The notes beneath the pieces were generated by a model, which saw nothing but the letters and a program-made list of their open reading frames with translations, made no database searches and was not told the origin of the DNA. Positions 17,464 to 28,907 of a stretch of 64,000 nucleotides of DNA are shown piece by piece. A program made the translations under genes and the position numbers. Location: NCBI GenBank assembly GCA_027459625.1, contig DAIDHP010000018.1, positions 1-64,000 of the forward strand, written 5' to 3'. Source of the stretch: Chthonomonadales bacterium (lineage in GTDB: Bacteria > Armatimonadota > Chthonomonadetes > Chthonomonadales > CAJBBX01). The stretch's first letter is position 1; each line of letters opens with the position of its first letter.

Positions 17464-18510
<1,047 letters not shown>

Positions 18511-18533
18511 ACCCTATCTGACCAGGTGACATC

Positions 18534-19370
18534 GTGTTACTCAAAGAGAAAAACAATCATCGTAACCATTGGTGGGCGTTGATTTTTTGCGTTGCACTTG
18601 GTATCGGGCTTGGGGTATGGCATAATCACGCATCTCGCCATGGGAAAGCGGACCCACTTTCCGCTGCGGTACGCACCGTCACGTCCCCTATCATACACAT
18701 CCTAGTCGCCACAACGGATTGGATGAATCACGAGTTCGGGTGGATTATACAAGGTCCTTCTCTTTCGCGAAAGTATGCGGCACTACGTTTGCAAAACGAA
18801 AATCTTCAAGCGCAGATCGCACAATTGCAAGAGGACGCGATTGATGCACAAAGGCTGAAATCGGAACTCGGCTTTGCCATGTCCCCTCCTTTGCATAAGA
18901 TCCCCGCCATCATTTTATCTATGCGACCCATTCCTAATTTTGAAACCATGGTGATCTCTAGGGGAAGCCGTAATGGAGTGAAACCTGACAGCGTCGTTGT
19001 GGCGCCCTTGGGGGTTGTGGGACATGTGTTCGACGTTGCTCCGACCACCTCTTCTGTGATCCTATTAACGGATCCGAATTCGGCTATAGGAGCGATGGTG
19101 CAGCGCGCCAGCTCTAGGGCGGTGTGCATTTGCAAAGGTAATGGGACGCCTTTTTTATCCATTGCTTATCTTGGTCAAAACGCGGACATACGCATCGGAG
19201 ATACGATGATCTCCTCCGGATTGGGAGGTGGGCAGGGAGTTTATCCCAAGGGGTTGGTTATTGGAACGGTGGTTTCCATCACAAATGATCCTTCAACTGC
19301 GTCTCGCCAGATACTAGTAAGGCCTGCGGTTGATTTTGATCGCTTGGAAGAGGTGTATATCCTCCAATGA
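18534..19370 (+). CDS. mreC: Rod shape-determining protein MreC
   Basis: 278 residues from GTG 18534. A short cytoplasmic tail, one membrane helix (WWALIFCVALGIGLGVW), a coiled coil (about 85-110, KYAALRLQNENLQAQIAQLQ) and the periplasmic beta-rich MreC core (PAIILSMRPIPNFETMVISRGS, VVAPLGVVGHVFDV, GLVIGTVVSI) are all in the expected order. It forms a scaffold linking MreB, MreD and penicillin-binding proteins. It overlaps mreD by 4 bp (ATGA). Confidence 0.95.
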   Translation: MLLKEKNNHRNHWWALIFCVALGIGLGVWHNHASRHGKADPLSAAVRTVTSPIIHILVATTDWMNHEFGWIIQGPSLSRKYAALRLQNENLQAQIAQLQEDAIDAQRLKSELGFAMSPPLHKIPAIILSMRPIPNFETMVISRGSRNGVKPDSVVVAPLGVVGHVFDVAPTTSSVILLTDPNSAIGAMVQRASSRAVCICKGNGTPFLSIAYLGQNADIRIGDTMISSGLGGGQGVYPKGLVIGTVVSITNDPSTASRQILVRPAVDFDRLEEVYILQ

Positions 19371-19834
19371 AGGGCGCAAAAAGCAACCTGCGTTTGACCT
19401 TGATCGTTATCATTCTCTTCTTTCTCCATGAAGCATACGCCTCGCATCTAGCCATCCGAGGGGCGCAACCCAATATCGCGCTCACCGGTTTACTTACATG
19501 CAGCCTGTTCACGGACGCCACTTTTGCCGCATGGCTGGGATTTATGACGGGTATTTTGGAATCGGCATATTTGGGGATGTATATCGGAAGCCTTATCGTA
19601 ACTCGCTCGTTAGCGGGGTGGATCATCGGCGCCATGGAGCCACACGTGTTTCGTGATAACGTGGTCATCGCCATCGGGATTTGTTTTTTAGGAACTTTTT
19701 TAACTGGAATGTGTTTTTATCTCTTTGCACCTCAGGCAAACACCCTATTGTGGGTCAAGGAGACTCTAGAGGAATCCATTTATAACTGCGTGATATCGAT
19801 ACCGATCTACTACATTGTAAAATTCACCGTTTGA
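19367..19834 (+). CDS. mreD: Rod shape-determining protein MreD
   Basis: 155 residues with about five membrane helices. The ATG overlaps the mreC stop (ATGA), so translation is coupled. Sequence divergence is normal for MreD; the call rests on position, size, the N-terminal RLTLIVIILFFLHEAYASHLAIRGAQPN segment and the membrane pattern. PBP2 and RodA, often next in this cluster, are not present. The next gene is convergent. Confidence 0.9.
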   Translation: MKGAKSNLRLTLIVIILFFLHEAYASHLAIRGAQPNIALTGLLTCSLFTDATFAAWLGFMTGILESAYLGMYIGSLIVTRSLAGWIIGAMEPHVFRDNVVIAIGICFLGTFLTGMCFYLFAPQANTLLWVKETLEESIYNCVISIPIYYIVKFTV

Positions 19835-21417: not shown

Positions 21418-21783
21418 TTTTGCGCTCCTTGAACCGGTATAGCGATGCTTGATAGATTATAGCACCATGCACTGCGTCCGTTTTAGTCCCTTGACAATAC
21501 GGGTGAATGAGATATATGTTTCTGTTGGATTTACGCAAGCCGCGAATTGTGAGGTGTATGCCCCTTTTATCTGTTTTTAGTGGAATCCTCATTATTCAAT
21601 TGCTGGCTATGGGGAGATTTTGCGTATTGCGATCAAGCAACGTGATTACCTGACCGGATGAGTATTCTTAATGTTTTATAAGCTTGTTTCCTATGGAAAA
21701 TTGAGACATTTGACGAATATAAGAACGTAATGAAATTGCTATCCAAGAGTTTCGTCTATAAAAAAACCTCAATAAGGAACCAT
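21418..21783. other. Divergent intergenic region, pepV / DUF347 gene
   Basis: No gene. Leftward, an extended -10 (TGCTATAAT, complement of 21456-21464) serves pepV. Rightward, TTGACA (21491-21496) with TATATG (21513-21518), spacer 16, is a plausible promoter, giving a leader of about 260 nt. Confidence 0.5.
21456..21464 (-). promoter_or_regulatory. Extended -10 promoter of pepV
   Basis: TGCTATAAT on the minus strand, 39 bp upstream of the pepV ATG. It has the same core as the tRNA, mreB and yebC promoters. No -35 box is evident. Confidence 0.5.
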
Positions 21784-22548
21784 ATGCAAACCAGAATTGC
21801 ACTGGATCACCAAAGAGTCAAAGTCCCGAATGTCAATGTCTTTTTTTGGATCATCAAGCTTTTAACCACCGCCATGGGGGAAGCCGCCTCGGATTTCCTT
21901 GTGTTCCATATGAATCCTTACTTGGCGGTTGGCATAGGTTTTTTTAGTTTTGTTGCCGCTATGGTTTTACAGCTTTGGGTGAAAAAGTTCATTCCGTGGA
22001 TTTACTGGCTTAACGCCGCCATGGTGGCGTTATTTGGAACTATGGTTGCGGATGTCATGCATGTGGTGATGGGCATACCTTATGCGGTATCAACGAGTCT
22101 CTTCGCCGTGTTGCTCGTCATTGTTTTCTCAGTATGGTTCAAGTCGGAAAGGACGTTGTCCATCCACAGCATATACACCTTTAAGAGAGAGCTCTTTTAT
22201 TGGGCAACAGTGGTGACCACATTCGCCTTGGGCACAGCTTTGGGCGATCTTACCGCCTTCACCTTTCATTTGGGTTTTCTAACCTCAGGAATGTTATTCC
22301 TGGTGGTTTTCGCGACACCCGGTATCATGAGGACAGTCTTTAAGTGTAACGATATCCTTACCTTTTGGTTCGCCTATATCATGACGCGCCCTCTGGGGGC
22401 ATCCTTTGCCGATTGGACATCAAAGCCGAAAAGCATGGGAGGACTAGCTTACGGTGATGGTTTGGTCGCATTGGTGCTGACAGCATTCATTATTGTTTTT
22501 GTAGGGTATGTCACCATTTTTCAGCAAGGAGGCGTCACCCTTCAATAG
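21784..22548 (+). CDS. DUF347 (COG4705-type) multipass membrane protein
   Basis: 254 residues from ATG 21784, favoured by AAGGAACC just upstream; in-frame ATG 21730 has no site. Four copies of the DUF347 repeat are visible, each starting with an aromatic residue and ending in a Gly...Asp pair: FWIIKLLTTAMGEAASDFL, YWLNAAMVALFGTMVADVM, YWATVVTTFALGTALGDLT and FWFAYIMTRPLGASFADWT. Each repeat spans two membrane helices, giving about eight. The conserved acidic residue in each repeat lies in the membrane, which suggests ion or metal transport. I know of no firm function. Monocistronic. Confidence 0.85.
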   Translation: MQTRIALDHQRVKVPNVNVFFWIIKLLTTAMGEAASDFLVFHMNPYLAVGIGFFSFVAAMVLQLWVKKFIPWIYWLNAAMVALFGTMVADVMHVVMGIPYAVSTSLFAVLLVIVFSVWFKSERTLSIHSIYTFKRELFYWATVVTTFALGTALGDLTAFTFHLGFLTSGMLFLVVFATPGIMRTVFKCNDILTFWFAYIMTRPLGASFADWTSKPKSMGGLAYGDGLVALVLTAFIIVFVGYVTIFQQGGVTLQ

Positions 22549-22821: not shown

Positions 22822-24036
22822 ATGAAAAGTTTTAAGGGAATATCACTCTATCCCGGAGCTGCTTTTGGAAGCGCAAGCGTCATTCGTGTTCCGAACGGAA
22901 TTCCACTTCTGCCTGCTCGCATGGTTGAGATGTTGGCGAAATCCTGTTCCGATTCGCCTCTTGAACCCATGGATGTAATTCTTGTCGCCCAGGACTATGA
23001 ATATGCAAGCGCCATGACGTTCCCTTGGGCGCATGTTGTTGGCATCGTGGCGGAACACGCATCGATCGAAGCTCCTTTGGGAAATGTTCCGGCAATTATT
23101 AGTGTGCCTGATCTACTCGTCAATATAGAGGATGGGGACCTCCTCCTTATCGACGGTGACCATGGTGCCATTTTCGTGAATCCTGACGGTATGACTATCG
23201 CAGCATATCAATCCGATAAAGAACACATTAGTCCGAAAAGACGGTTTTATCTAGATTATCAAGATCAGCCTGCGGTCACCATTGATGGCAGGGAGATCCG
23301 GGTTATCGCACGGATTAACACCATCGATGATTTCGAACAGGCGCAGCGAAACGGCGCGGATGCGTTTTACATAACTGCGGGAGCCGACCTTCTTCCATTT
23401 GAGATATCGGATAGGGAGCAGTTGTCGAAATTGATCAGTTTGGCTGAGTTGGCAGATGGGAAACCTATTACCGTGATGGGTGGCAGGAATGCTTTCGATT
23501 ACGCCGCACTCCTCAAAGTTGCAACTCGAGCGGAATTAACCCTGTGCCTTCCCGGAAAATATCGACTGAAGGGATTCAACGATATTCAGCATTACATGCG
23601 TGAATTAAGCGGGGAATTAATTTCAGACAATTATTTCGTGTCCGATGTTCGTTTGGCTGCTTATCTGCGGATTGGGGATATCCTCGATGATGATCTTACC
23701 GGTTATCCGATTAGCAGGATTGTGATAGATGGCTCCGATACCACGGAATTTGGAGATGGCGAAAAGGAATGGATACGCCAAGTGAGTTCCATATGCCGGT
23801 CCATGTTAACGCCCTTGGAATTGATTGTTCCCTTCCCAACCGCCTCGGTAATAACTCAAGCGATATCCCTAGGCGTTTCCGGTATGATTATTTCATCCGA
23901 ACAGGTGCCATCAGTGAAAACATCGATTAGAGAAACGGATGAATGGGGAAACTTTAACGTTTCATATAACGACGCCGAAGACGAATCCCACCATCCCAAA
24001 TATGTGCTTCCAGAGGATAAGAAATTACAGCCATGA
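22822..24036 (+). CDS. Degenerate PTS enzyme I-like protein, probably catalytically dead
   Basis: 404 residues from ATG 22822, against about 570 in true enzyme I. The N-terminus FKGISLYPGAAFGSASVI copies the enzyme I opening. The HPr-binding helical domain is missing, and the sequence goes straight to the swivelling phosphohistidine domain (MDVILVAQDYE, VVGIVAEHASIEAP, VPAIISVPDLL, GDLLLIDGDHGAIFVNP). The GGRTSH loop is about six residues shorter; His79 is the only candidate for the phosphohistidine. The barrel opens like enzyme I (PAVTIDGREIRVIARINTIDDFEQAQRNGAD), but the YRTEF block is ITAGADLL. No VETPAA, TNDLTQY or MCGE motif is found, so metal- and PEP-binding residues appear lost. Its stop overlaps the start of the Rieske gene by 4 bp. 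Function is unknown. Confidence 0.7.
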   Translation: MKSFKGISLYPGAAFGSASVIRVPNGIPLLPARMVEMLAKSCSDSPLEPMDVILVAQDYEYASAMTFPWAHVVGIVAEHASIEAPLGNVPAIISVPDLLVNIEDGDLLLIDGDHGAIFVNPDGMTIAAYQSDKEHISPKRRFYLDYQDQPAVTIDGREIRVIARINTIDDFEQAQRNGADAFYITAGADLLPFEISDREQLSKLISLAELADGKPITVMGGRNAFDYAALLKVATRAELTLCLPGKYRLKGFNDIQHYMRELSGELISDNYFVSDVRLAAYLRIGDILDDDLTGYPISRIVIDGSDTTEFGDGEKEWIRQVSSICRSMLTPLELIVPFPTASVITQAISLGVSGMIISSEQVPSVKTSIRETDEWGNFNVSYNDAEDESHHPKYVLPEDKKLQP

Positions 24037-24356
24037 AACAAGCTCTGAAACCTCTTGCGGGGTGCAAGGATATGCCAAATAACTCCTCCATATTAGTAAA
24101 CATTTATAACGATGAGGACTTTATCCTCTATCGCAACGAGAATGGCGATTTAATGCTTTCCTCCTCATTGTGCCCGCATCAAAACGAACCTTTGGATCAC
24201 GGTCATTTTCAAGACAGCCAAGTGATCTGCAGGAGGCATCACCTCATATTTGATCTGAAGACAGGCGAATGCTTGAACGCATGCGGATACACTCTTCAAA
24301 CACTCCCTGTAGTAATTCGCGATGGTGTCATCTGCGCACTTTACTGGGAGGATTGA
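24033..24356 (+). CDS. Rieske [2Fe-2S] ferredoxin-type protein
   Basis: 107 residues, one complete Rieske domain with nothing else. Cluster ligands are Cys47-x-His49 (LCPHQ) and Cys66-x2-His69 (ICRRH), 16 residues between the pairs, followed by FDLKTGECLNACGYTLQTLPV, typical of soluble dioxygenase-type or NirD-type ferredoxins. The disulfide cysteines of bc1-type Rieske proteins are absent, so a low-potential electron carrier is expected. The ATG overlaps the stop of the enzyme I-like gene (ATGA). No dioxygenase or reductase partner is next to it; nirA is 27 kb away. Confidence 0.9.
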   Translation: MKQALKPLAGCKDMPNNSSILVNIYNDEDFILYRNENGDLMLSSSLCPHQNEPLDHGHFQDSQVICRRHHLIFDLKTGECLNACGYTLQTLPVVIRDGVICALYWED

Positions 24357-24708
24357 TATGTGTTCACCATAATCACCATCCCCCTTGGTTCATTGACAGA
24401 CAGCTTCATTCCTCGCTAAAATATATATCGAAAATGGCAGGTAGGGTATCGCTAAATATGCTATCAAGCGTATCATCAACAAAAAGATAGTGACATTTGC
24501 CCGATCTCATGAGCTTGGCAATTACCTCGGAATAATGAATTTCCATTCGAAGGATGCTTCAAAGTCGTTTATCCTATATTCAAATGCACGTTTCAAAGAA
24601 TATTGAAAACGCCATGGGTGGTTGTAAATGCAGTTCCAATCATGAGTCCAGGCTGGCTTGTTGGCATAGCCGCATAAAGCGGAATATTTGCATCATCCCC
24701 TTATTAAT
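24357..24708. other. Long leader region of queA
   Basis: About 350 bp with no credible gene. A promoter lies at 24393-24422, so the queA mRNA would have an untranslated leader of about 280 nt. I do not see a preQ1 riboswitch pattern. In-frame TTG 24688 precedes ATG 24709. Confidence 0.4.
24393..24422 (+). promoter_or_regulatory. Putative promoter upstream of queA
   Basis: TTGACA (24393-24398) and TAAAAT (24417-24422), spacer 18 bp. Start predicted near 24429. Confidence 0.55.
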
Positions 24709-25725
24709 ATGCTTCTAGATGATTTCGATTACAACCTTCCGGTTGAATTAATAGCTCAAACGCCCGCACCCAGAGGGGAATCACGTCTTCTCTGTTTAAA
24801 TCGCGGAAACGGTGAGGTAAAAGACACCACATTTCCGCATCTGCTGGATTACATTCATCGGGATGATGTGGTGGTCATAAATGATACGCGAGTATCCGCT
24901 CGTCGAATGAAAGCCGTGCGCGATAACGGTGGGAATGCCGAGATACTTCTCATCCAACCTGTCGGGCGAAATCGCTGGAAGGCGATGGTACATCCTGGAA
25001 GAGGACTGCAAATTGGACGGTTTGTGAATATTCTTTTAAATGATGGCAATCGTGTAAAGGCTCAGTCGGTCGATGTTACGGAGGATGGAGGTCGGATCCT
25101 TCTATTTGAGAGCGCTGAAGCGAGAGATTCTCTCTTATGGCAGGGGGAAATCCCTTTGCCGCCATATATTCATTCCCATCTGGCGGACGAGGAACGCTAT
25201 CAAACGATCTACTCCAATCTTCCCGGATCCGCTGCGGCTCCCACTGCGGGATTGCATTTCACTCGGCAGTTACTACAAGATATTGACTCCATGGGCGCTA
25301 CACTGACGCGTATCACTCTTCATGTTGGCATTGACACATTCCGTCCGGTTAAGGAGAGAGTGATTGAACACCATAAAATGCACGGCGAGTGGTACACGAT
25401 TACGAAGGAAACAGCGGATACCATTAATAACGCTTCGGGTAGGATTATCGCCATTGGTACCTCCACGGTGAGAGCGTTGGAATCCGCGGCGATTTCAGAC
25501 GGAGTGGTCGAGTCGAAAACCGAAGAGACCAGGTTATTTATCACACCTGGCTACCGCTTCAGGATTATCGACGCCATGTTGACGAATTTTCATTTGCCGA
25601 AATCCACTCTGCTGATGCTTGTATCGGCTTTTGGAGGAATGGAATACGTTCGAAACGCCTATGAATTCGCAGTTAGGAATCAATTACGTTTTTTTAGTTT
25701 CGGTGACGCCATGCTGATTTACTGA
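24709..25725 (+). CDS. queA: tRNA ribosyltransferase-isomerase QueA
   Basis: 338 residues. It transfers and isomerises the ribosyl part of S-adenosylmethionine onto preQ1 at tRNA position 34, giving epoxyqueuosine. Family hallmarks: MLLDDFDYNLPVELIAQTPA at the N-terminus, VVINDTRVSARRM, GSAAAPTAGLHFT, THVGIDTFRPV-type segment (LHVGIDTFRPVKE), IAIGTSTVRALES and MLTNFHLPKSTLLMLVSAFGG. ATG 24709 fits the usual QueA start; TTG 24688 is an alternative. No tgt, queG or queF lies nearby. The leader is unusually long. Confidence 0.97.
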   Translation: MLLDDFDYNLPVELIAQTPAPRGESRLLCLNRGNGEVKDTTFPHLLDYIHRDDVVVINDTRVSARRMKAVRDNGGNAEILLIQPVGRNRWKAMVHPGRGLQIGRFVNILLNDGNRVKAQSVDVTEDGGRILLFESAEARDSLLWQGEIPLPPYIHSHLADEERYQTIYSNLPGSAAAPTAGLHFTRQLLQDIDSMGATLTRITLHVGIDTFRPVKERVIEHHKMHGEWYTITKETADTINNASGRIIAIGTSTVRALESAAISDGVVESKTEETRLFITPGYRFRIIDAMLTNFHLPKSTLLMLVSAFGGMEYVRNAYEFAVRNQLRFFSFGDAMLIY

Positions 25726-25939: not shown

Positions 25940-26986
25940 ATGCTTTTCGAAGAGTGGCAAAAATGGCTTGATTCACAATTTCTGGATTCACAAAACCCCG
26001 ATGAGATGCAGGAAGTCGCAGATACGGCTGTCTCCGTTACGCCTGGCGACCGGATATCTCCAGTTAGCGACATAAGCCAGTCAGCCCAACAGATTAATAC
26101 TGCTGCGGAAAATGTAGTAGTCCCTCAAAACCGAGAGCCCATATCCAATACTTCGATACGGCAGGGCGAATCCTCGGTATTAGAGAACCTATCCGAATCC
26201 GTGGACGTCCCCACTATCGACAAGTACCTGCCCCAGTTTAGAAATGCCGCGCATGCGGATATTCCGGTTGCGACCGTTACGCCGCAGGAGTTGCCGGTTC
26301 CGGAGAAAAAAGAGGAACAATTCGAAGCGGTCCAGGAAAATGTGGCGCATGAAGATATTCCACAGGCGGCTGAAAATGAAAAGAACGAGGACATTCAGCA
26401 AACGCAGTCTTCTGAGACATGTGAATCGGATTCGATCCCTAATTCCTCCCCTCTCATTGAAGACATGGATGTGAAACAAGAAACAACCGTGGTTGCCACT
26501 TCCAACACCGAGGGCTCTGCAGTTGAAACGGAAATTCTCTCCAACCCCACTCAAATAATACCCGTTGAACCTGTGATGGTCGAGGCGGAACCGAAACCCA
26601 TGGAGGTCAAAACGGTTCGCACCCTGAAGCAAACCAGAAATGCGCGTCGGCCCAGAAAAGACATCGGTTTGAAATTAATTAATCTGTGGGAAATAACACC
26701 ACGTCGTTTGGAAGTTCTATTATCCATGAATCCCAGTTCCGCCACATACAGCCGCGAATTGAAAGAGCAAAGGATACAAAGCATCAAAGTGCTCACCGAT
26801 CCAACAATTTCTCATATGGACGCCTCGCGCATCCTGAAATCACCCATATACGTTGCTCGCGGTGTCACAAATGGGAATCACATCATACATCTTGAATTCG
26901 CTCAAGGAGGAGAGTCCACCAAGATGGCTGAGATCATGTCGTTTTTAGAATCACAAAGTAAAATACACGTTTCTAATACTCAATAG
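25940..26986 (+). CDS. Long disordered protein with conserved-looking C-terminal domain, unknown
   Basis: 348 residues; GGGAGA precedes ATG 25940. Not recognised. Residues about 15-225 are rich in Glu, Gln, Pro, Val, Ser and Thr with no hydrophobic core, so likely disordered. Before it is a short amphipathic start (MLFEEWQKWLDSQFLDSQN). A basic linker (TRNARRPRKD, about 232-242) leads to a folded-looking C-terminal part of about 110 residues (IGLKLINLWEITPRRLEVLL, SPIYVARGVTNGNHIIHLEF). No signal peptide or membrane helix, so cytoplasmic. Terminal short folded parts joined by an acidic tether recall scaffold or cell-division proteins, but that is only an analogy. It lies between queA and a glycosyltransferase. 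Confidence 0.8.
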   Translation: MLFEEWQKWLDSQFLDSQNPDEMQEVADTAVSVTPGDRISPVSDISQSAQQINTAAENVVVPQNREPISNTSIRQGESSVLENLSESVDVPTIDKYLPQFRNAAHADIPVATVTPQELPVPEKKEEQFEAVQENVAHEDIPQAAENEKNEDIQQTQSSETCESDSIPNSSPLIEDMDVKQETTVVATSNTEGSAVETEILSNPTQIIPVEPVMVEAEPKPMEVKTVRTLKQTRNARRPRKDIGLKLINLWEITPRRLEVLLSMNPSSATYSRELKEQRIQSIKVLTDPTISHMDASRILKSPIYVARGVTNGNHIIHLEFAQGGESTKMAEIMSFLESQSKIHVSNTQ

Positions 26987-27023
26987 ACCCGTCTCCTTTC
27001 AAGGAAATAAATATTAAACCACC

Positions 27024-28217
27024 ATGCGCATCGGCATCTTCTCCGAATCTTTCGAACCCGTTCAAAACGGTGTAAGCACGTCCGTCCGTACACTGTTAGA
27101 CGAATTGCGAGCGCATCATCACAGAGTAGTGGTGGTGGCACCCCATTACCCCGATTACGTGGACGATTCCCCGTTTATTTTACGCGTGCCATCCGTTCGC
27201 ACGCCTTTCAACCCGAATTATCCTCTTTCTTACCCTTGGTTCCCCAATTTGCGTCGTAATCTCACGCGTATCTCTCCGGATATTTTGCATTCGCATACCC
27301 CATTCTTTTTAGGTTTGTTGGCGTCTCGCATCGCAAAGCAGGATAATATCCCGCTCGTATCAACCTACCATACCTTGTACAATCATTATGGTCATTATCT
27401 GGTGTTTCTTCCTCAGCAAGCAGTGGATGGATTGTTGGAATGGTGGATACCGGAGTATTACAACCGATGCAGTCATGTCATTGTGCCTTCGAGAATCGCG
27501 GAGCAATCGTTGCGGCAATACAAGGTGGAGACTCCGATTACCGTGATTCCAACTGCGGTGCCATTGCCCCTTGAGACGGATGTGAGCGAGCAGTCTCGAC
27601 GGAATGCGAGAGAGCGGTTTAAAATCCCAATGGATGGGAAATTGCTTTTGTACGTGGGTAGAATGGCGCAGGAAAAAAATATTGAACTTGCCATGGAGTC
27701 ATTCCAGGCGGTCGCGCAAAAACATAAGGACGCATATTTGCTAATAATCGGCGGTGGTCCGCATTATGAGGCGTGTCGCAAAATCGTTGAGAGTTTTCCG
27801 GATGGCGACCGTATCATTCTTGCCGGTCCCATGGTAAGATCGGAGTTGGATCCCTTCTACTCCGCTGCGGATGTCTTCATATTCCCATCCTCAACTGAGA
27901 CGCAAGGGCTTGTGATCGCGGAAGCGCGCGCCGCCGGGACTCCGTGCGTGGTGGTGGACGAAGGCGGAGCTTGTGAGACTGTTGTCAATGAAGAGGACGG
28001 TATCATCACCCAGTCCGATACTGAGGCGTTTTCCAATGCGATTGTTTCCCTGCTTGACAATCCTTCCTGGATAGAAGGAATGCGGCAAAAATGCTTGCTT
28101 AATGCGCAAAAATACACCCCATCATCCATGGGAGAGAAAATCATCGGAATTTATGAAGCTGTAATCGAAGACCGAAATCAGCGTTACCCCGCTTTACAAA
28201 AAAAACACCATGATTGA
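27024..28217 (+). CDS. GT4 glycosyltransferase (diacylglycerol glucosyltransferase-like)
   Basis: 397 residues, GT-B fold. The N-terminus MRIGIFSESFEPVQNGVSTSVRTL and the HSHTPFFLGLLA and STYHTLYNHYGHYL segments resemble processive or monoglucosyl-diacylglycerol synthases and mannosyltransferases such as PimB and MgtA. The C-terminal donor site has LLYVGRMAQEKNIELAMESF and the FIFPSSTETQGLVIAEARAAG motif with its retaining-GT4 Glu pair. A nucleotide-sugar donor and a membrane-lipid acceptor are likely, but the acceptor is inferred. DedA lies 27 bp downstream on the same strand and may be in one operon. Confidence 0.88.
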   Translation: MRIGIFSESFEPVQNGVSTSVRTLLDELRAHHHRVVVVAPHYPDYVDDSPFILRVPSVRTPFNPNYPLSYPWFPNLRRNLTRISPDILHSHTPFFLGLLASRIAKQDNIPLVSTYHTLYNHYGHYLVFLPQQAVDGLLEWWIPEYYNRCSHVIVPSRIAEQSLRQYKVETPITVIPTAVPLPLETDVSEQSRRNARERFKIPMDGKLLLYVGRMAQEKNIELAMESFQAVAQKHKDAYLLIIGGGPHYEACRKIVESFPDGDRIILAGPMVRSELDPFYSAADVFIFPSSTETQGLVIAEARAAGTPCVVVDEGGACETVVNEEDGIITQSDTEAFSNAIVSLLDNPSWIEGMRQKCLLNAQKYTPSSMGEKIIGIYEAVIEDRNQRYPALQKKHHD

Positions 28218-28244
28218 TTCGCACACCTGCGGAAGGAGACAACG

Positions 28245-28907
28245 TTGCACAGCATAACGGAAATTATTGCACTGTGGATTATGCACGTCATCAGAACGTT
28301 AGGATATCCTGGCATTATTACGCTTATGGCGATAGAGAGCGCCTGTATTCCTCTGCCTAGCGAAGTCATTATGCCATTCTCCGGAGCGTTGACTGTCGCC
28401 ATTGTGGCAAGCGCCCAAACTCCTCCAATGCAACCATTCAATCTTCTATTCGTGGCGCTGGCGGGGGCTCTGGGCTGTGCGGTGGGTTCCGCGCTTGCAT
28501 GGTGGGTGGGAATCATTGGCGGGCGTCCTTTTGTTGAAAAGTATGGCAAATACCTCCTCATTCGAAAAAGGGACATCCAGCACGGTGACGTCTGGTTCGC
28601 CAGGTGGGGGGGCTGGGCGGTATTTGTTTCAAGATTACTCCCCGTCGTAAGGACATTTATTTCGCTGCCCGCAGGCGTCTCCAAAATGAAATTCGCACCC
28701 TTCATTGCACTTACCTTTATCGGCTCCCTCCCCTGGTGCTATTTTCTGGCATGGATTGGGATGAAACTCGGGCAGCAGTGGGATATATTGAAAACCTATT
28801 TTCACAAAGCCGACGCGCTTATTCTTGCCGTATTATTGATACTCTTCATCATGTGGTTATGGCATCATCTTCGACCGGAGCCGGAAGTCTCAAGCGAAAA
28901 GGCGTAA
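28245..28907 (+). CDS. DedA family membrane protein
   Basis: 220 residues. The start is TTG 28245: GGAAGGAGACAACG sits at ideal distance and no in-frame ATG is better placed. DedA (SNARE-associated/VTT) landmarks are GYPGIITLMAIESACIPLPSEVIMPFSG, GCAVGSALAWWVGIIGGRPFVEKYGKYLLI, FARWGGWAVFVSRLLPVVRTFISLPAGVSKM and the ENxxxPxPxE-like acidic residue. DedA proteins move lipid carriers or phospholipids such as undecaprenyl phosphate across the membrane. This fits the upstream lipid-sugar glycosyltransferase. Confidence 0.93.
   Translation: MHSITEIIALWIMHVIRTLGYPGIITLMAIESACIPLPSEVIMPFSGALTVAIVASAQTPPMQPFNLLFVALAGALGCAVGSALAWWVGIIGGRPFVEKYGKYLLIRKRDIQHGDVWFARWGGWAVFVSRLLPVVRTFISLPAGVSKMKFAPFIALTFIGSLPWCYFLAWIGMKLGQQWDILKTYFHKADALILAVLLILFIMWLWHHLRPEPEVSSEKA

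Follow-up and report, generated by a model that had tools for sequence, protein, structure and literature searches.

The longer of the two proteins at this locus has its closest described relative in enzyme I of the PTS (PtsI, TIGR01417; EI of E. coli). Both have an N-terminal strand, a swivelling domain, a PAxTxDG linker, a barrel that starts alike (GAD/GAE) and a C-terminal strand-helix, and they align in profile-profile comparison with an E value of 1e-32. The protein described here, a pseudo-EI, differs from EI in having neither the HPr-binding domain nor the motifs for PEP and Mg, in its shortened active-site loop and a 34-residue deletion in the barrel, and in being encoded by a genome without HPr.

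A second precedent is the nitrogen PTS (EI-Ntr/NPr/EIIA-Ntr). In E. coli, ptsO and ptsN share one operon with rpoN and LptB, and LPS synthesis is affected by dephosphorylated NPr (PMC4635465). An EI relative beside LPS-export genes, the position of the pseudo-EI gene in several families, therefore has a neighbourhood precedent; the likeness is one of neighbourhood only, however, with no HPr/NPr-type protein and no conserved phospho-histidine on the pseudo-EI side. By analogy a regulatory, envelope-linked role for the pseudo-EI is conceivable, as a lead only.

The shorter protein resembles small Rieske ferredoxins (HcaC, NirD and the toluene-4-monooxygenase ferredoxin) in size, in its CxH-x16-CxxH spacing and in its match to PF00355, but it scores under every NCBIfam equivalog cut-off, and the genes of its orthologs follow moaA and do not adjoin one for an oxygenase or nitrite reductase. 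Our overall reading, to which we give a probability of about 0.68, is that two unrelated conserved genes have become neighbours in one genus, and that the pseudo-EI is non-catalytic.

The EI-like protein and its gene

The window (the whole 64,000-nucleotide stretch of DNA that was analysed) contains the following features at the locus:

21730..22548, + strand: DUF347 membrane protein, 5' of the EI-like gene (Pfam); a neighbour in this genus only
22822..24036, + strand: CDS of the EI-like pseudoenzyme, 404 aa and a stop codon; homologs begin at the equivalent of M1
22837..22887, + strand: N-terminal strand, aa 6-22, counterpart of EI residues 4-20 (pairwise alignment; family columns)
22972..23166, + strand: swivelling (phosphohistidine-type) domain, aa 51-115, with an active-site loop six residues shorter (PF00391; alignments)
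23056..23058, + strand: His79 codon, pairwise opposite EI His189 (alignments; column composition)
23257..23937, + strand: degenerate PEP-binding barrel, aa 146-372, with a 34-residue internal deletion and without catalytic motifs (profile-profile alignment to EI; columns)
24033..24036, + strand: ATGA overlap of 4 bp (EI-like TGA, 24034-24036; Rieske ATG, 24033-24035)
24033..24356, + strand: stand-alone Rieske [2Fe-2S] protein, 107 aa (PF00355, E 3.9e-11; orthologs)

Both reading frames described in an earlier sequence-only reading are present, with stop and start overlapping as it stated; an alternative in-frame ATG upstream (22762) would lengthen the first product to 424 aa. The sister species, the sole other genome of the genus, encodes the same two proteins (93% and 96% identical), but there 8 nt separate the EI-like stop from the Rieske start codon, so the 4-bp overlap has not been conserved. 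Comparison of the two species gives a Nei-Gojobori dN/dS of 0.09 for the first gene and of 0.03 for the second, and both are therefore maintained by purifying selection. Scans for promoters and terminators around the pair returned no more matches than shuffled sequence. Upstream, at window 17470-19834, lies an mreB-mreC-mreD-like rod-shape cluster.

In Pfam, aa 51-115 match the PEP-utilizer mobile domain just over its cut-off (23.3 bits, cut-off 23.1; E 4.9e-5), the start of the PEP-binding barrel falls below cut-off, and the HPr-binding domain (PF05524) is not found. The pairwise score of the N-terminal strand against EI was equalled by 2 of 5000 shuffles, and G6, G12, A14 and G16 of this strand are conserved across the pseudo-EI family. 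PTS enzyme I provides both the closest solved structures (PDB; E 1.5e-13) and the top NCBIfam match, the latter far under any equivalog cut-off, and no Pfam or NCBIfam model specific to pseudo-EI matched the protein. An AlphaFold2 prediction for this protein, made with one relative, reached a mean pLDDT of only 42 and is not a usable model. A family profile built from 41 pseudo-EI members aligns by hhalign with a true-EI profile over aa 48-393, corresponding to EI 152-561; together with PF00391 above its cut-off, this identifies a swivelling domain and barrel of EI type. The earlier reading, which proposed a profile search as a check, is borne out on the EI strand, the swivelling domain and the loss of the HPr-binding domain. 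Its further statement, that the start of the barrel is retained, was too narrow: the start is present, but the alignment continues, with gaps, as far as EI 561.

The YRTEF, VETPAA, TNDLTQY and MCGE motifs reported missing are indeed absent from the 404-aa protein, and a motif survey of 62 loci, of which three are duplicates, yielded isolated, chance-like matches only, indicating that they have been lost throughout a phylum-wide family. In the 41-member profile alignment, EI R296, R332, E431 and C502 lie opposite A186, M219, R283 and I335, at positions that vary within the family. R299 stands opposite EI R465, and 29 of 41 members have Arg there. At the phospho-site, His79 can be aligned pairwise with EI His189 (HASI/HTSI) in both genomes of the genus, in keeping with the earlier description of a His in a shortened loop; GGRTS is deleted, so the GGxTSH active-site loop of EI is not formed. 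A minimal phosphocarrier, in which His79 would accept phosphate from PEP or another donor without HPr, is scarcely credible given that the four catalytic equivalents are replaced, that the sole acidic match near N454/D455 (D290/D291) lies in a gap-ridden, unconserved stretch, that His occurs at this position in only 2 of 41 aligned sequences, those of this genus, and that the genome encodes neither HPr nor a protein with the EI N-terminal domain. Residue 148 (P0001; window 23263-23265) is a family-specific His in 37 of 41 pseudo-EIs (xxHxPAxT) and Asp in the window's genus.

Genome searches returned no HPr family gene and no EI N-terminal domain (PF05524), and apart from the pseudo-EI the PEP-utilizer mobile domain occurs in a single 973-aa frame. 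Among 101 relatives HPr is found in ten, nine of which also match full-length EI; it coincides with a pseudo-EI in one relative only (G040, 9% contamination), which has both kinds of EI. As a group, then, pseudo-EI genomes are without HPr, nearly all of them lacking it. The absence of HPr and of the EI N-terminal domain implies that this EI-derived protein outlived the PTS or never needed it, and membership of the EI-like protein in a PTS was rejected on the same grounds.

The pseudo-EI family in Armatimonadota

Homologs of the EI-like protein were identified in 51 of 101 relatives. Their common features are the N-terminal strand, the core of the swivelling domain, the PAxTxDG linker, GAD at the second barrel strand, GKP and the C-terminal strand-helix. 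Across the phylum 92 of 291 genomes match the pseudo-EI profile, nine of them solely through a full-length EI (EI-sized frames, at least 514 aa long), which puts the short form in about 83. In a FastTree phylogeny of 59 pseudo-EIs, eight true EIs of the same phylum and E. coli EI, all 59 pseudo-EIs are separated from all true EIs by a long branch with support 1.0, and within the clade they group mostly by family-level group in a largely vertical-looking tree. The pseudo-EIs, roughly 340-480 aa long, thus form one EI-derived, catalytically dead clade that is kept in a phylum mostly without a PTS, and the designation of the window's protein as an enzyme I-like pseudoenzyme is upheld by motif loss across this monophyletic family and by the lack of HPr and of an EI N-terminal domain in the genome. 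Literature searches did not turn up a truncated pseudo-EI from this phylum.

The gene is missing from some close relatives (G003 and G018), as would be expected of a decaying relic heading for loss. That explanation is very improbable: it is already contradicted by the dN/dS of 0.09 between the two species, and open-frame homologs occur in at least ten family-level groups of the vertical-looking tree.

Two kinds of neighbour recur beside pseudo-EI genes. In 24 of 59 distinct loci, the 24 coming from four families, the next gene downstream encodes a D-2-hydroxyacid dehydrogenase and begins no more than about 200 nt away, and by eye these dehydrogenases have residues typical of active enzymes; in one further locus a GFO/IDH/MocA protein directly follows. 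LptA/LptC-like genes adjoin the pseudo-EI in 17 loci from six families. LptC-like and LptA/OstA-like neighbours are seen, for example, in L125, L124, L135, L132, L139, L130 and L117, and the two are fused into one ORF in L130, L138 and L139. In one family (L037:7861-17001) the order is FtsX, a 680-aa membrane protein, a PqqD-domain protein, FtsX, a LolD-like ATPase, pseudo-EI and 2-hydroxyacid dehydrogenase. None of these recurrent neighbours is found at the loci of the window's family, and the window's genus has no close ortholog of the dehydrogenase (best 28-30% identity, versus 42-43% in G003 and G004).

The pseudo-EI would most likely act without chemistry, its swivelling domain and barrel serving as a regulator or adaptor that binds protein or ligand. 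Judged from gene neighbourhood, the likeliest setting for such a non-catalytic regulator or adaptor would be envelope export or 2-oxoacid/2-hydroxyacid metabolism, where it might serve the dehydrogenase encoded beside it in many relatives, a suggestion that we consider tentative.

The Rieske gene and the place of moaA

The Rieske protein retains its four ligands (C47, H49, C66 and H69) as CxH...CxxH within the Rieske domain, and its best relatives, 42-47% identical, are found in the same family. In ten genomes of the same and a neighbouring family the ortholog lies directly 3' of moaA. The ancestral-type gene order is moaA-Rieske-queA-X-GT-DedA, with queA and the genes beyond it seen in several relatives where contigs reach. 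The window and the sister species keep Rieske-queA-X-GT-DedA and have the EI-like gene in the place of moaA (tblastn synteny). The downstream part of the block in the window comprises:

24688..25725, + strand: queA ortholog, downstream member of the moaA-Rieske-queA block (tblastn synteny)
25940..28907, + strand: rest of the block (tblastn synteny, Pfam), beginning with X (25940-26986)
27024-28217, + strand: family 4 glycosyltransferase (GT) of the block (tblastn synteny, Pfam)
28245-28907, + strand: DedA/VTT protein of the block (tblastn synteny, Pfam)

Loci in which moaA is followed by a small Rieske gene include L074:4776-6265, L075:4535-6001, L076, L077 and L079-L085; over ten or so genomes of the order the spacing between the two genes ranges from a few to about 190 bases. 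A literature search found no moaA-linked Rieske protein described for this phylum.

No moaA remnant was found in the window, and neither of the genus's two genomes, with completeness of 96.6% and 92%, encodes MoaA or MoaC, both of which are present in five genomes of the same family (G002-G006). With two independent assemblies and a contiguous locus, assembly gaps are an unlikely cause of this absence. MoaA and MoaC are also absent from the complete-looking genome G015, which keeps the Rieske ortholog in another setting; the Rieske protein must therefore have a use independent of moaA. From its family it is most likely still a small electron carrier, with a partner encoded elsewhere.

Of the EI-like loci that were examined, only those in the two genomes of this genus have such a Rieske gene next to them. 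About 430 kb of a single contig separate the two genes in G015, and in draft genomes that have both they are on different contigs. A conserved EI-Rieske operon was consequently rejected, adjacency being limited to one genus. The earlier suggestions of a redox-sensing pair, a scaffold pair or a new electron-transfer unit are likewise not supported, as the genes are never neighbours in any examined genome outside the genus, an outcome that the earlier reading had itself named as refuting; the check for co-occurrence proposed with them places the Rieske ortholog with moaA/queA, and the EI-like gene with other neighbours, outside the genus.

The adjacency is very probably a genus-level product of moaA loss and not an ancestral functional pair. 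Synteny shows that in this genus moaA is gone, as is moaC, while the remainder of the block persists, and that the pseudo-EI gene now occupies moaA's place; the order of these events is one that we infer. The tight junction between the EI-like and Rieske genes would then be a by-product of this rearrangement.

A link that arose within the genus is a different matter. The two genes lie within 8 nt of each other in both genomes, an adjacency kept despite a dS of 0.36-0.53, so that a new functional link is possible there; both genes are under strong purifying selection, and oxidoreductases directly follow the pseudo-EI elsewhere (the 24 loci with a 2-hydroxyacid dehydrogenase and the one with GFO/IDH/MocA). 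After moaA loss the Rieske protein might thus have been recruited as a co-translated redox partner or sensor of the pseudo-EI. We consider this unlikely, since no other genus is known to have the pair, the sister species has a gap instead of the overlap, and the Rieske gene retains its ancestral downstream neighbours, so that a new partner is not required. Somewhat less likely again is a broader proposal, in which the pseudo-EI would be a PTS-independent regulator or adaptor that was repurposed from enzyme I at an early stage of the phylum, acts together with an oxidoreductase encoded next to it (as a rule the 2-hydroxyacid dehydrogenase, but the Rieske protein in this genus) and links the state of central metabolites to envelope export. 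The preferred reading remains that of two unrelated genes brought together by the loss of moaA.

Significance for the family

Gene loss accounts for what looked like a redox pairing, which should not be filed as a new electron-transfer unit. The survival of the Rieske gene after moaA loss, together with the linkage of moaA and Rieske genes, is a separate and testable question. The pair itself is ordinary, and the phylum-wide pseudo-EI family is the more interesting object: an EI fold that has been kept and diversified for use other than phosphotransfer across a phylum mostly lacking the PTS.
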